DNA from: Candidatus Undinarchaeales archaeon SRR5007147.bin71
Lineage (GTDB): Archaea > Undinarchaeota > Undinarchaeia > Undinarchaeales > Undinarchaeaceae
Length of the DNA stretch: 40,968 bases
Direction: 5' to 3'
Assembly: GCA_014189675.1 (NCBI GenBank)
Contig: DVAE01000030.1
Coordinates: 1 to 40,968 of the forward strand
In this document: piece by piece, positions 19,714-26,983 of the stretch
Layout: each line of letters begins with the position of its first letter
How positions within the stretch are numbered: the first letter of the stretch is position 1
Translations under genes and position numbers: made by a program
Notes under the pieces: model-generated
The model's input: only the letters and a program-made list of their open reading frames with translations
Told to the model about the DNA's origin: nothing
The model's database searches: none

Positions 19714-20292
19714 TTAAAGAACTTTGGCTTTTTTTAGCTCCTTGACCAACTTCTCAACGCCCCTTCTGACGTCGACAATTTTCTTTGCTCCTGTGCACAC
19801 AATTTTACCTGACCTGAAAAGCAAGAAAACTACTTTCGGCTCAGCCACTCTGAAAACCAGACCAGGGAACTGTTCCGGCTCGAACTCTGTGTTCTCCAGT
19901 GTAAATGCAATCTTGTCCAGATTAAGTTCAGATTTTAGGTCAGAGGATGCGACAATGTTCTGTATTTTTATCGTTGCCTCTCCCTTTACCTTTATACCGC
20001 ATTTGCGAATTTGCTTAAGAGTTTCTGCAATTGCGACCTTTACTGTTTTTATCTCTTTTGAGCCAGTGCAAACCATCTTGCCCGAAGAGAAAACGAGAAT
20101 AGCAGCCTTTGGTTTAACAAGTCTCAGAACGAGACCTGGAAACTGCTCAGGCTCATATTCAGCGTTATCTAGAGTCGCAGCAATTTTATCGAGATCAATT
20201 TCTGCATCAACGGCAGCGCTTGCGACAACATTTTCAATCTTTATCTTTGGTTTAAGTGATATGTTTGACTTAGTTTTTGAAGTTTTAGGCAT
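19714..20292 (-). CDS. tbp: TATA-box-binding protein
   Basis: Two direct repeats with EPEQFPGLVLRLVKPKAAILVFSSGKMVCTGSK / EPEQFPGLVFRVAEPKVVFLLFRSGKIVCTGAK. Confidence 0.98.
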   Translation of the reverse strand: MPKTSKTKSNISLKPKIKIENVVASAAVDAEIDLDKIAATLDNAEYEPEQFPGLVLRLVKPKAAILVFSSGKMVCTGSKEIKTVKVAIAETLKQIRKCGIKVKGEATIKIQNIVASSDLKSELNLDKIAFTLENTEFEPEQFPGLVFRVAEPKVVFLLFRSGKIVCTGAKKIVDVRRGVEKLVKELKKAKVL

Positions 20293-20348
20293 AATAATCC
20301 CTCCCAGGGGTTCTTTAAGTAGTATTTAAAGTATATAAAGGCTTGGTG

Positions 20349-21599
20349 TTAGGTACCTGCAGCGTAATCAGTCAGATACTTCACCTGCTCTGCTGTGAGC
20401 TTGTCCAGAGAAAAACCCATTGTTTCAAGTTTTAGAGCTGCTATATCACGGTCCTGCTCACCATCTATGTCGTGAACATTATTCTCCAGACTTCCTTTAT
20501 TCTCAAGCAAACTTAGCATCGACATAAATTGGTTTGCAAAACTCATATCCATAACTTCAGAGGGGTGACCTTCTGCCGCCGCAAGATTAACTAGACGGCC
20601 TTTGGCAAGAAGATAAATCCTGTTTCCGTTTTTTAGAACATACTCTTCATTGTTAGTCCTCACTTCACGCTTTGTTTTTGCCAAAGATTCTAAATCATTA
20701 AGATTTATTTCAAGATCATAGTGTCCAGTGTTGCAGACTATTGCCCCGTCCTTCATGCTCTCGAAGTGTCTCCCTATAATAACGTCCTTCATTCCCGTTG
20801 CTGTTATGAATATGTCTCCGAGTTTTGCTGCCTCATCCATCTTCATAACACGGTGACCTTCCAGACTTGCCTTTAGAGCTGCTATTGGATTAACCTCGGT
20901 TGCAATTATATTTGCTCCTAGACCGCTTGCTCTGAGAGCAAGTCCGCGACCGCAGTGCCCATATCCGGCGATAACAACTGTTTTTCCGGCGAAAAGAACG
21001 GACGTAGACCGCATTATTCCGTCGAGAGTGCTCTGACCAGTCCCGTAAACATTATCAAAATCCCATTTTGTCTCTGCATCATTGACAGCTATCACAGGAT
21101 AGAGGAGCTTCCCTTCCTCTCCCATTGCGCGAAGCCTGTGAACACCAGTTGTCGTTTCCTCAGTTCCCCCAATTATTTCCTTGGCGAGTTCAGGATGCTT
21201 TTTATGTATTGTAAAAATTAAATCAGCTCCATCATCTAGAGTAAGTGTCGGCTTGAAATTCAAAGTCTGCTCTATACACCAGTAAAATTCTTCATTTGAA
21301 AGCCCGTGCCAGGCATAGATATCAGTACCTGATTCGGCAAGGGCTGCTGCCACATCGTCCTGCGTCGAAAGGGGATTGCAGCCACTCCAGGATATTTCCG
21401 CTCCTGCTACTTTCAAAGTTTCAATAAGAACTGCAGTTTCCTTTGTAACGTGAAGACAGCCAGCTATTCTCTGACCTTTCAGAGGCTTACTCTTTCCGTA
21501 CTTCTCGCGCAGGCTCATAAGAACAGGCATTCGGGACTCTGCCCATTCTATTTTCTTTCGGCCTTGAGCCGCCAGTTTTTCATCTGCTATTTTGCTCAT
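20349..21599 (-). CDS. ahcY: S-adenosylhomocysteine hydrolase
   Basis: CLHVTKETAVLIETL, NVYGTGQSTLDGIMR, VVIAGYGHCGRGLALRASGLGA, NTGHYDLEI. Confidence 0.97.
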   Translation of the reverse strand: MSKIADEKLAAQGRKKIEWAESRMPVLMSLREKYGKSKPLKGQRIAGCLHVTKETAVLIETLKVAGAEISWSGCNPLSTQDDVAAALAESGTDIYAWHGLSNEEFYWCIEQTLNFKPTLTLDDGADLIFTIHKKHPELAKEIIGGTEETTTGVHRLRAMGEEGKLLYPVIAVNDAETKWDFDNVYGTGQSTLDGIMRSTSVLFAGKTVVIAGYGHCGRGLALRASGLGANIIATEVNPIAALKASLEGHRVMKMDEAAKLGDIFITATGMKDVIIGRHFESMKDGAIVCNTGHYDLEINLNDLESLAKTKREVRTNNEEYVLKNGNRIYLLAKGRLVNLAAAEGHPSEVMDMSFANQFMSMLSLLENKGSLENNVHDIDGEQDRDIAALKLETMGFSLDKLTAEQVKYLTDYAAGT

Positions 21600-21677
21600 T
21601 AGTCTGTTTTGTATAATATCAGTGGTTTAAATTGTTTTTTAAGTTAAGCTTTTATAATTATACCAGATATAAGCCAT

Positions 21678-22547
21678 ATGAAACTGGGAAATTCTCTTTT
21701 GTTGTTATTAATAGTTAGTGTGAGCGGCTGTATTTCTCAGACAGAGACAGAAGCAGATAAAGAAGTAGAAGTCCCTCACATACCTGGTGAACCTGCAATA
21801 ATTGTTCCACATACTCAGGGAGAAAGAGATATTAGAGAAATAATGGAAGAGGGGAAACAGAGTGCAGAATTTGATATAGAAAACGAAGAGATACCTAAAT
21901 TTGTGGATGAAAATTTTATTGAGCTTGATAAAATTAAGTCAATTTCAAAGTTTAGAGGCGGTTATGGACACGATTTTTCTGCAGGAACAGGAGAAAGTTG
22001 CAGAAGTATGAAGCACTATTTTTGGCCGGCATGGGGTGAACATGGTAAAACTCATAATCCATCCTGGATGAGCATAGAATATTATTCACCGGTTGACGGA
22101 GTCATTGAGGAATTGCAATACAGGGAAAATGCCTATGGAACTGAGGCACAATTTCATATAGTACCAGACGAAGAACCTGCCTTCCTCCTCAGATTTTTCC
22201 ACTTGAAATTGCTTGACTCCCTAGGAGAGGGAAGTAGAGTAAGTGCTGGGCAGAAAATAGGAACTATTGGAGATGAGAATTCACACGCTGAGATTGCAGT
22301 TGAGCTTATGATACCTGATGGCTCCACAATAATTTCATTTTTCCAGATTATGAGTGATTCTGTGTTTGAGGAATACGCAGAGAGAGGTATGACATCAAGA
22401 GAGGATGTAATAATTAGCAAAGAAGAAAGGGATGCAGATCCTCTGGAATGTGACTATTCTACAGAAGCTGGATATTTCGTAGGAAGGGGAACTGAAAAAT
22501 ACGACAGATGGTCAACCAGCTCAGCGAACTGGCTTATGTTAAATTAA
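21678..22547 (+). CDS. Predicted lipoprotein with M23/LytM-like (duplicated hybrid motif) domain
   Basis: N-terminus ...LLLLIVSVSGC lipobox; GGYGHDFSAG, SPVDGVIEEL, FLLRFFHLKLLDSLGEGSRVSAGQKIGTIGDENSHAEIAVEL resembles M23 hybrid-motif organisation. Confidence 0.65.
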   Translation: MKLGNSLLLLLIVSVSGCISQTETEADKEVEVPHIPGEPAIIVPHTQGERDIREIMEEGKQSAEFDIENEEIPKFVDENFIELDKIKSISKFRGGYGHDFSAGTGESCRSMKHYFWPAWGEHGKTHNPSWMSIEYYSPVDGVIEELQYRENAYGTEAQFHIVPDEEPAFLLRFFHLKLLDSLGEGSRVSAGQKIGTIGDENSHAEIAVELMIPDGSTIISFFQIMSDSVFEEYAERGMTSREDVIISKEERDADPLECDYSTEAGYFVGRGTEKYDRWSTSSANWLMLN

Positions 22548-22552
22548 GTTGT

Positions 22553-23074
22553 TTACTCTGATTTGTAATTCACAAGAGAATATATCTTGTAATCTTTGAG
22601 CTTTTCTCGCCCCTTAAGGAAGGACAGCTCTATAAGAAAGGCGAAGGCTGCGATTTCTCCTCCTATTTTTTCTATTAAGTTGGCAGTTGCGCGTGAAGTT
22701 CCTCCAGTAGCGAGAAGGTCATCTACAATTAAGACCTTGTCTCCTTCCTTGACTGCATCATCGTGAACCTCAAGCCTGTCTGTTCCGTACTCGAGCTCAT
22801 ATTCCTCATAAACTATATTGCTTGGAAGTTTTCCGGGTTTTCTGACTATTGCAAAGGGAATTTTCATTGCATAGGCAAGAGCGGCTCCGAAAATAAAACC
22901 ACGAGATTCTACCCCTACAATTATGTCAATTCCTGAATCTGAGAATTCATTCTTGAAATTATCAACAACATATTGGAAAGCCTCAGGATCCTGTATTAAG
23001 GTAGTGATGTCACGGAAAACTATTCCCTTTTTAGGAAAGTCTTGTATATTACGTATTTTATCCTTTAAATCCAT
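22553..23074 (-). CDS. apt: Adenine phosphoribosyltransferase
   Basis: MDLKDKIRNIQDFPKKGIVFRDITTLIQDP, VESRGFIFGAALAYA, VLIVDDLLATGGTSRA; start at 23074 favoured by promoter position over 23137. Confidence 0.95.
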   Translation of the reverse strand: MDLKDKIRNIQDFPKKGIVFRDITTLIQDPEAFQYVVDNFKNEFSDSGIDIIVGVESRGFIFGAALAYAMKIPFAIVRKPGKLPSNIVYEEYELEYGTDRLEVHDDAVKEGDKVLIVDDLLATGGTSRATANLIEKIGGEIAAFAFLIELSFLKGREKLKDYKIYSLVNYKSE

Positions 23075-23096
23075 ACAGGAAAGTTGTAAGATAAGC

Positions 23097-23102
23097 TTAT
23101 AA
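23097..23102. promoter_or_regulatory. Palindromic TATA element TTATAA shared by apt (-) and MTAP (+)
   Basis: Centre 23099.5 is 25.5 bp from the apt ATG (23074) and 26.5 bp from the MTAP ATG (23126), in a 51-bp divergent gap. Confidence 0.65.
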
Positions 23103-23125
23103 CTTTTATTAGGCATAGAAAACCA

Positions 23126-23920
23126 ATGGAAAGGCAAGTTGACATTGGAGTTATAGGAGGTTCAGGAGTATACGACGCTGAGTTTTTAAAAAATTCCGAA
23201 GAAATTACACTGGAAAGCAAGTACGGAAGTCCGGCTGACAGCTATCTTGTTGGAGAATACCTTGGAAAGCAGGTGGCATTTCTTCCGAGGCACGGAAAGG
23301 ACCACGCTCTTGCACCCCATCAAGTAAACTATCGTGCAAATATAGACGGATTCAGACAGCTTGGAGTAGGAAGAATAATAGCAGCGCAGGCAGTCGGCTC
23401 TTTGAAAGAGGAATATAAGCCTGGAGACATTGCTTTTACAGACCAGTTTATAGACAAAACTTTAGGACGTGATTCAACATTTTTCGATGAAGGAAAAGTT
23501 GCCCATGTTTCAATGGCTGAGCCGATGTGCCAGTACCTGCGAGAAATATTGATAAAGGGAGCACGGAAACTTGAGCTTGAGCACCATGAAAAAGCTACCT
23601 ATGTCTGCATAGAGGGACCAAGATTTTCGACGCGTGCAGAATCTGAACTTTTCAAGAGCTGGAATGCAGACCTAATAGGAATGACTCTTGTTCCGGAATC
23701 AGTTCTGGCAAAAGAGGCATCAATTTGCTATGCACCTGTTTCAATGGTAACTGACTACGACTGCTGGAAGAAAGGGCATGTTGTAAGTCATGAAGAAGTA
23801 ATCTCAGTTATGGAGCAGAATGTCGGGAAAATCAAAAAACTTCTTTCTGAAGTCATAGCAAAAATTCCTGATAAACGCTCGGCTGAGTGTGAAAATACCA
23901 TGGAAGGCGCAACGGCCTAA
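23126..23920 (+). CDS. mtnP: S-methyl-5'-thioadenosine phosphorylase
   Basis: IGVIGGSGVYDAEF, FLPRHGKDHALAPHQVNYRANI, ICIEGPRFSTRAES-like (VCIEGPRFSTRAES), GMTLVPESVLAKEASICYA. Confidence 0.94.
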   Translation: MERQVDIGVIGGSGVYDAEFLKNSEEITLESKYGSPADSYLVGEYLGKQVAFLPRHGKDHALAPHQVNYRANIDGFRQLGVGRIIAAQAVGSLKEEYKPGDIAFTDQFIDKTLGRDSTFFDEGKVAHVSMAEPMCQYLREILIKGARKLELEHHEKATYVCIEGPRFSTRAESELFKSWNADLIGMTLVPESVLAKEASICYAPVSMVTDYDCWKKGHVVSHEEVISVMEQNVGKIKKLLSEVIAKIPDKRSAECENTMEGATA

Positions 23921-24165
23921 AGGGGCTGCTTCTCTGCCGCCTGACTGTAATCCTTGTGAACAGTTCTTGAGTAAAGTTCTGTTCCCCGTATTTTGTGAAT
24001 ATATTCTTCAGCAATAAGCTCGTGAATCAAACCACCCACTTCTTTTTCAGGAATTCCATGTCCTTTTGCATAATTTTCAAGATCTTCAAATGAGAACATA
24101 TTAGCATGTTCCTCTAGCTCAAGAACTGCACGCTTTAACTCCTCAAGATATTCCTGTTCGACCAT
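23917..24165 (-). CDS. Small winged-helix-like hypothetical protein
   Basis: 82 aa helical with LENYAKGHGIPEKEVGGLIHELIAEEYIHKIRGTELYSR, a wHTH-type pattern; promoter TTTAAA ~27 bp upstream. Confidence 0.6.
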   Translation of the reverse strand: MVEQEYLEELKRAVLELEEHANMFSFEDLENYAKGHGIPEKEVGGLIHELIAEEYIHKIRGTELYSRTVHKDYSQAAEKQPL

Positions 24166-24198
24166 AAATTATTATATCCACAGGAACAATTTAAACTT
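24166..24198. promoter_or_regulatory. 33-bp divergent intergenic with two promoters
   Basis: AATTATTATATC (24168-24177) ~26 bp from ATG 24199 (+); TTTAAA (24190-24195) ~27 bp from ATG 24165 (-). Confidence 0.6.
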
Positions 24199-25260
24199 AT
24201 GGATTCTCAAGTTACAATAGTCGGAGGGGGGCCGGCTGGTCTGCACCTTTCGAGAAAGCTCAAAGAGAAGGGGATAGATTCGACAGTGTATGAGAGTAGT
24301 CCTGATCTAGGAAGACCGGTTCAGTGCTCCGGAGTTTTTAGCAACAATTTTGCAGAACTTCTTGAGATGCCAAAAAAAGTAATACTCAATCAAGTAAAGG
24401 GAGCTAAGCTCTACTCTCCAAGCAAAAAAATTGTTGAAATCTCAAAAAGAGAGAAGCAGGCAGATATTGTTGACCGCGGAGAATATGACAGACATTTAGC
24501 GAAGGGTCTTGATGTCAGAGAGGGAGAACATGTCAACTCTCTGGACTTTGATTCTGAGTATATAGTCGGAGCAGATGGAGCCCATTCAACAGTTGCGAGG
24601 CTGGCAGGATTTTCCCCTTTGGAAAAACACGTCGTCGGAGTCCAGGTTGAGATAGACAACGACAGCTACGACAAGGACTTTGTAGAGCTACATCTTGGAC
24701 AGAAGGTGGCTCCCGGCTTCTTTGCCTGGATAATACCGACGGACAAAAATCTTCGTGTCGGACTTGGAACGACAGAAAATCCAAAAGAATATCTTGACAG
24801 ATTTATAGAAGAAAGATTCGGAAAAGTAGAACAGAGAGAATGTCTTGCAGGATTCATACCGGTGAGAGTTAGAAAACCGATGTGGAAAGGAAACATTGCC
24901 TTGGTCGGAGACGCGGCAGGTCAAGTAAAGGCAACAACAGGAGGAGGAATTTACATGGGTATGAAATCCTCAGAGATACTGGCAGATGCAATAGAAGAGA
25001 AAGACCTGAACATATATGAAAAACGATTTACTACGGAAATTTATCCGGACCTGAAAAAGGCTGTAGCTATTAATAAAGTTCTGTCTAGTATGACAGACGA
25101 AGAGATGGATAAGTTCTGGGACACGCTCGGAAAGGAGAGCATGGTGAAACTTATGCAGGAATATGGAGATATGGACAAGCCGACGCTTCTTCTGAAAGGC
25201 TTCTTAAAAAATCCGGGACTTATAACTCAGGTTCCCTTTATTAGAGGTCTTCTGAAATAG
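24199..25260 (+). CDS. Geranylgeranyl reductase family FAD-dependent oxidoreductase
   Basis: VTIVGGGPAGLHLSRKLKEKG, RPVQCSGVFS, VGADGAHSTVAR, GNIALVGDAAGQVKATTGGGIYMGM. Confidence 0.93.
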   Translation: MDSQVTIVGGGPAGLHLSRKLKEKGIDSTVYESSPDLGRPVQCSGVFSNNFAELLEMPKKVILNQVKGAKLYSPSKKIVEISKREKQADIVDRGEYDRHLAKGLDVREGEHVNSLDFDSEYIVGADGAHSTVARLAGFSPLEKHVVGVQVEIDNDSYDKDFVELHLGQKVAPGFFAWIIPTDKNLRVGLGTTENPKEYLDRFIEERFGKVEQRECLAGFIPVRVRKPMWKGNIALVGDAAGQVKATTGGGIYMGMKSSEILADAIEEKDLNIYEKRFTTEIYPDLKKAVAINKVLSSMTDEEMDKFWDTLGKESMVKLMQEYGDMDKPTLLLKGFLKNPGLITQVPFIRGLLK

Positions 25261-25929
25261 TTATTTTCCATGCCTTCTCTGACGAGAATCGTAGTCCTCA
25301 AGTGCAGTTTTGATGTCATCAATAGTCACATCAGGCCAGTACTTATCCAAAAAGTAAAGTTCAGAGTAACTTGAGCCCCATAGCATAAAGTCACTAAGGC
25401 GGCTCTCAGAAGTCCTGAATATCAGGTCGACATCCGGATAATCTGAATAAAGATTTTCGGATATGCTTTCAAGAGAAAGATTTTCACCTGATTTCTTAGC
25501 AGCATCTACTATTTCCTGGCGACCAGAATAGGCGAGAGCAACCCTGAAAAACTTGCTGTCATAATCAGCTGTTGCTTCAATAGCGATATCAGTAGCCTTA
25601 AGAACCTTTTCCGGTACAAGGTCACGGGAACCTATAATTCCGACTCTTACCTGATTTTTGTGAATATCCTCATCCTTTGAGAGTTTAATGAAGTATTTTG
25701 AATATAATTTTTCAAGAGCCTTTAGCTGAGGAGCAGGACGATTCAGATTTGAAGCAGAAAGTCCGTAAGCAGTAAGATGTTTCACAGGAGTTTCTGAAAG
25801 AAGCCATTTGGAAACTGTTTCCATAACTTCAATTCCTTTGATGTGACCGTCCCAAGGAAGCGAGCCTTTTTCAGAAGCCCAACGGCAGCAGCCGTCCGGG
25901 ATTATTGCCATATGAAGAGGATAATTCAT
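25261..25929 (-). CDS. Cis-prenyltransferase (undecaprenyl/polyprenyl diphosphate synthase family)
   Basis: HMAIIPDGCCRWASEKG, YGLSASNLNRP, ALAYSGRQEIVDA, DLIFRTSESRLSDFMLWGSSYSELYFLDKYWPD. Confidence 0.93.
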   Translation of the reverse strand: MNYPLHMAIIPDGCCRWASEKGSLPWDGHIKGIEVMETVSKWLLSETPVKHLTAYGLSASNLNRPAPQLKALEKLYSKYFIKLSKDEDIHKNQVRVGIIGSRDLVPEKVLKATDIAIEATADYDSKFFRVALAYSGRQEIVDAAKKSGENLSLESISENLYSDYPDVDLIFRTSESRLSDFMLWGSSYSELYFLDKYWPDVTIDDIKTALEDYDSRQRRHGK

Positions 25930-26011
25930 ACACTATTCTTAGTAAAGCTTCTATAAAAAATAAGAGGCAAAGAAGTTTTATATAACACGCAGAACAAAAC
26001 AGCTTTGGGAG

Positions 26012-26983
26012 ATGGAATTTAACACAGCTATTTGGACAGAGAAGTACAGACCCGCTGTACTGTCGGAAGTCGTTGGACAGCAGCATATAGTGGAAAGACT
26101 GAGCGCCTTCGCAAAAGATAAAACTCTTCAGCACCTCCTCTTTTCTGGACCTGCGGGGACAGGGAAAACTACCTGCGCTCTCGCTCTTGCGAAAGAAACA
26201 TTCGGAGATAACTGGCAGGGTAATTTTCTTGAGCTAAATGCATCAGACGAAAGGGGAATTGACGTAGTAAGAAACAAAGTAAAGGACTTTGCAAGGACAA
26301 AGGCTCTTGGAGATGTTCCTTACAAAATAATTTACTTGGATGAGAGCGATGCTCTTACGAAAGAGGCTCAACAGGCACTAAGACGTACTATGGAAAATTA
26401 TACACACACATGTCGCTTCATACTATCTTGCAACTACAGTTCAAAAATTATAGACCCCATACAGTCACGGTGCGCAATTTTCAGATTCGGACCAGTTGAA
26501 AGGGAAGAACTTGAAAAAAGACTGAAATTTATAGCAGGGGAGGAAAAACTTTCCGTAGATTCTAAAGGAATGAAAGCTCTTCTTGAAATCGCAAACGGCG
26601 ATCTTAGAACAGCAATAAACCTTATGCAGGCTGTAGCATCAAGTGGAGAAAGTATAAGCGAGGAATCGGTTTATCTTGTTTCGGCAAGAAGCAAGCCAGG
26701 GGAAATTGAGGACTGTCTCAAGCTTGCTATGAATGGTGGCTTCAAGGAAGCACGGAAAAAGATTACCACTATGATGATTGAAAAGGGAGTTTCAGGAGAA
26801 GATGTTATAAGGCAAATGCATCGGGCTCTCCTTAGGATGGATGAAATACCGGAAAACGCCTTGGCAGGGCTTCTCGATAGGCTCGGCGAATATGACTTCA
26901 GAATAACCGAAGGCTCGAACGATATTATACAGATAAACGCCTTCCTGGCTCAGCTTTACAAGACCGGAAAAGATGGAAAATGA
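26012..26983 (+). CDS. rfcS: Replication factor C small subunit
   Basis: WTEKYRPAVLSEVVGQQHIVERL, GPAGTGKTTCALALAKE, YLDESDALTKEAQQALRRTME, SRC motif DPIQSRCAIFRF. Confidence 0.97.
   Translation: MEFNTAIWTEKYRPAVLSEVVGQQHIVERLSAFAKDKTLQHLLFSGPAGTGKTTCALALAKETFGDNWQGNFLELNASDERGIDVVRNKVKDFARTKALGDVPYKIIYLDESDALTKEAQQALRRTMENYTHTCRFILSCNYSSKIIDPIQSRCAIFRFGPVEREELEKRLKFIAGEEKLSVDSKGMKALLEIANGDLRTAINLMQAVASSGESISEESVYLVSARSKPGEIEDCLKLAMNGGFKEARKKITTMMIEKGVSGEDVIRQMHRALLRMDEIPENALAGLLDRLGEYDFRITEGSNDIIQINAFLAQLYKTGKDGK

Follow-up and report, generated by a model that had tools for sequence, protein, structure and literature searches.

The 51-bp gap between the divergent genes apt and MTAP is very probably a single bidirectional archaeal core promoter giving two leaderless mRNAs, as judged from the sequence of the locus and of related genomes. 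The gap (positions 23075 to 23125) lies in a window of 40,968 nucleotides, which is the whole stretch of DNA analysed, and the window belongs to the draft genome of the Undinarchaeales bin SRR5007147.bin71 (G000, 623,718 bases) from an uncultivated lineage. The entire predicted promoter is contained in the gap, and its length is kept in two sister species. The reason why two genes share one box is most likely genome compaction, rather than a dedicated switch for adenine balance.

Genes, start codons and predicted promoter sites of the apt/MTAP gap

On the minus strand, apt (22553 to 23074, ATG at 23074) encodes an adenine phosphoribosyltransferase of 173 aa, which matched the NCBIfam profiles TIGR01090 (236 bits) and NF002633 and the Pfam family Pribosyltran. 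When the protein is begun at 23074, residues 1-171 align to positions 1-171 of NF002633. On the plus strand, MTAP (23126 to 23920, ATG at 23126) encodes an S-methyl-5'-thioadenosine phosphorylase of 264 aa, which matched the Pfam family PNP_UDP_1 and, over the cut-off and with a profile fit from residue 7, TIGR01694 (321 bits). Both start codons are well supported by these alignments, and 52 bp separate the A of the apt ATG from the A of the MTAP ATG. The adenine released by MTAP is consumed by Apt. Next to apt, a plus-strand gene at 21678-22547 without any Pfam or NCBIfam match lies between ahcY and apt. In the sister genomes G001 and G002, apt directly adjoins ahcY, with the apt stop abutting the ahcY start, and the additional gene was found neither in the G001 sequence analysed nor in the single G002 contig examined, so that it looks like a lineage-specific insertion splitting an apt-ahcY operon.

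To describe the promoters of this genome, 676 genes were called, each supported by both G000 and G001, and the regions upstream of 242 likely transcription-unit starts were analysed. An AT peak at -31 to -23, an A-rich stretch at -34 to -32 and a T-rich position -1 were observed, and judged by these features the upstream regions follow the pattern of leaderless archaeal promoters. A promoter model learned de novo from G000 by expectation maximisation (EM), with apt and MTAP excluded from training, recovered a BRE/TATA motif whose commonest start is -38 or -37 from the ATG.

In the gap, this model placed a predicted site for MTAP at 23088 to 23103 on the plus strand (AAGATAAGCTTATAAC, motif start -38, 8.2 bits) and a predicted site for apt at 23096 to 23111 on the minus strand (TAATAAAAGTTATAAG, motif start -37, 7.6 bits), both at modal positions of the genome. 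The model includes the BRE, and BRE-like sequence is found on both strands, with the plus-strand BRE (GATAAG) the poorer match of the two. The two sites have the TATA core TTATAA (23097 to 23102) in common, which is its own reverse complement and is the best-scoring core on each strand. Runner-up sites within 60 bp reached just 2.5 and 1.6 bits, and no competing promoter site was seen when both strands of the gap were scanned with the model. The same TTATAA core was picked, at 8.1 and 9.0 bits and likewise in modal positions, by a second model whose training set consisted solely of 114 non-divergent promoters from the sister genome G001.

The sequence-only reading had placed TTATAA at these positions of the 51-bp gap and had suggested that it drives both genes at a spacing suited to leaderless mRNAs in both directions. 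The placement is confirmed by the sequence, and the distances are as claimed, with the centre of the hexamer (23099.5) lying 25.5 bp from the A of the apt ATG (23074) and 26.5 bp from that of MTAP (23126). The core thus stands about 26 bp from each start codon, which is typical for this genome, and its last A lies at -23 and -24 relative to the two ATGs. With motif starts of -38 and -37, the spacing agrees with leaderless transcription both ways, and the use of one TTATAA by both genes appears well founded, as the predicted sites on the two strands share their core and the core is kept in the genus.

TATA-like words are common at such base composition, and in a gap so rich in A and T the hexamer could in principle have arisen by chance. 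This explanation is extremely improbable given its position, its score on two strands and its conservation; in Markov-simulated intergenic sequence, a pair of sites on the same core with 7.5 bits or more on each strand occurred at about 1e-4 per position. Scans of the gap for sigma-70-type promoters and for terminators gave no match, and no RNA element, a purine riboswitch for instance, was found when 20000-26500 was searched against Rfam.

According to the mechanism proposed here, the symmetric TTATAA would carry an outward-reading BRE-like sequence on each flank. TBP would bind once, and TFB could dock on either side and so choose the direction. RNA polymerase would then be positioned about 23-24 bp past the final A of the TATA core, so that transcription would begin on or beside the first base of each ATG and give two leaderless mRNAs, apt leftward and MTAP rightward. 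By this geometry the two complexes would overlap, and therefore only one initiation complex could be accommodated at a time.

Conservation of the gap in the genus

The gap length of 51 bp is unchanged in G001 and G002, with 48/51 and 50/51 bases identical, respectively. The substitutions (three in G001 and one in G002) all fall outside 23084-23122, and both BRE and TATA sites are identical in the two sister genomes. At the four-fold sites of apt and MTAP, 68/171 positions were changed in G001 and 36/179 in G002, i.e., 20-40%, and the difference from the gap was significant in both comparisons (Fisher p = 1e-6 for G001 and 9e-4 for G002). Conservation of the gap clearly exceeds that of neutral sites. 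Compared with the divergent gaps between G000 and G001 as a whole, for which the median identity was 86%, the 94% identity of the apt/MTAP gap is above the middle and is not exceptional.

Conservation also bears on the start of apt. The sequence-only reading had named an upstream ATG at 23137 as a possible start for apt, but the codon there, with which the longer ORF of the program-made list opens, is TTG, and the ATG upstream in frame lies at 23116. If apt started at either of these codons from a promoter of its own inside MTAP, TTATAA would serve MTAP only. The upstream reading frame has no stop in any of the three sister genomes, and a TATA-like site of 8.0 bits is present at 23199. Against such a start, the N-terminus of known Apt proteins corresponds to ATG 23074, no promoter site was found at -37 of 23116, and the TATA-like sequence TTTTTAAAA is not kept, reading TTTTTGAAA and TTTCTGAAA in the sisters. 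In addition, both G001 gap changes inside the extension change residues (LQLSC to LQFSY), indicating that the conservation of the gap is not that of coding sequence. An upstream start with its own promoter is very improbable and was rejected on conservation.

Around the core, an imperfect 25-bp outer dyad, AAGTTGTAAG-N5-CTTATAACTT, was found at 23081 to 23105, and the element might be mainly the operator of a dimeric regulator overlapping a promoter. Of ten pairings between the arms AAGTTGTAAG and CTTATAACTT, nine are symmetric, but no second copy of the dyad was found in the genome with up to 3 mismatches allowed, G001 differs in one arm base, and the dyad centre at 23093 is off the promoter centre. 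With neither recurrence at other promoters nor conservation of both arms, the dyad was set aside as an operator, a function that is highly doubtful.

Order-level relatives and other shared cores

Conservation of the palindrome in relatives had been proposed as a check by the sequence-only reading, and it was borne out within the genus only: in the order-level relatives examined (G003, G004 and G005), the shared TTATAA box was not found. The apt and MTAP genes of G005 diverge across a gap of 46 bp; apt has a box of its own (6.6 bits, -38) and the best MTAP sites are elsewhere, so that no sharing is predicted. In G003 and G004, another gene lies between apt and MTAP. The divergent neighbourhood is therefore wider than the shared box, since order-level relatives have the former without the latter. 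The two genes are neighbours in many lineages, and they are co-directional in G008/G050 and in most bacteria having the pair; bacterial loci with MTAP-apt neighbours were L077, L084, L088, L091, L096, L117, L121 and L128. A divergent pair with a short gap was observed in Pelagibacteraceae (L124, L127). A divergent arrangement also occurs in L052 (CSMAG_1836, Candidatus Nanohalarchaeota), with about 760 bp between apt and MTAP. As the neighbourhood is common, bacteria included, a functional link between the two enzymes is plausible, yet the neighbourhood is no evidence for control via the TTATAA box.

Divergent pairs in which both promoters score at least 3 bits on one core were counted as sharing a core. 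Such cores were found in 8/85 divergent pairs of G000 and 9/88 of G001, with gaps of 48-57 bp, and in 5/76 pairs (gaps of 53-55 bp) in about 529 kb of G003, which belongs to another family; these counts are approximate, resting on simple gene calling and on ATG starts chosen partly by promoter score. At shared cores, the weaker direction had a median of 6.5 bits, compared with 2.8 bits for ordinary promoters read in reverse (p = 0.001), which argues for real two-way use over a general symmetry of TATA boxes. Read in reverse on the same core, about half of the ordinary promoters also reached 3 bits or more, indicating that weak symmetry alone is common. Even at divergent gaps of 30-44 bp, 7 of the 11 such pairs in G000 have one good match per gene, with the two matches mutually crossing; for the 33-bp gap at 24166-24198, the promoter scores were 6.2 and 4.6 bits.

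The genes flanking the other shared cores are mostly unrelated, with partners including S17e and a Nop-domain protein, lysyl-tRNA synthetase (LysRS) and an M50 protease, MscS and a metallopeptidase, and VIT1 and a flavin reductase. Because the other shared boxes have unrelated partners, compaction is favoured as the reason for sharing. It is unlikely that the shared box was selected as a regulatory device in which apt and MTAP compete, as one initiation complex fits at a time, and their outputs are balanced. This explanation draws on the release of adenine by MTAP and its use by Apt, on the neighbourhood of the two genes in many lineages and on the strong conservation of the gap in the genus. 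It is opposed by the recurrence of the same architecture elsewhere in the genome between mostly unrelated genes, by the adjacent pair of G005 without sharing and by the intervening gene of G003 and G004. In E. coli, moreover, the basal firing of bidirectional promoters is too low for competition (PMC12825309). As the purpose of the box, the balancing of adenine release against salvage is unsupported. A broader proposal combines both aspects: in a small-genome archaeal lineage, about one in ten divergent pairs, with fixed gaps of about 48-57 bp, would be served by a TATA box that is exactly shared and mutually exclusive in its two directions, and in the case of apt and MTAP this either-or initiation would couple adenine release and salvage without a regulator protein. 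Taken as a whole, this proposal is quite unlikely.

Comparison with known bidirectional promoters

Archaeal promoters that fire both ways have been described before, and the apt/MTAP gap would add a new example, together with at least seven more predicted in the same genome. The box is a clean, minimal example of a promoter that may give two leaderless mRNAs. The consequence for the adenine pair alone is modest. Together, the eight predicted boxes of this small genome offer a way to examine whether two genes are made to compete by a common TATA box or simply save space.

The same adenine-salvage genes (mtnP-apt) are adjacent and divergent in Pelagibacteraceae (L124, L127) and in order-level relatives, as they are here. 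Such divergent neighbourhoods elsewhere imply no shared TATA box, and the bacterial promoter type differs.

In architecture, the gap resembles the BRE-TATA-BRE promoters of Pyrococcus furiosus, in which one near-symmetric TATA box has a BRE on each side and which fire two ways in vitro (PMC6640164). At PF1918 of P. furiosus the start sites are 49 bp apart (PMC6640164), compared with 52 bp between the A's of the two ATGs here, and the last A of the TATA box lies at -23 there (PMC6640164) and at -23 and -24 here. The two cases differ in their products: in P. furiosus the reverse product studied was an antisense RNA behind head-to-tail genes (PMC6640164), whereas the apt/MTAP gap is predicted to yield two leaderless enzyme mRNAs. 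The pseudo-symmetric bidirectional promoters of E. coli are likewise comparable, as they have a symmetric core to which one polymerase at a time binds, facing either way (PMC12825309); they use the -10 and -35 elements of sigma factors, whereas TBP and TFB would serve in the case of apt and MTAP.
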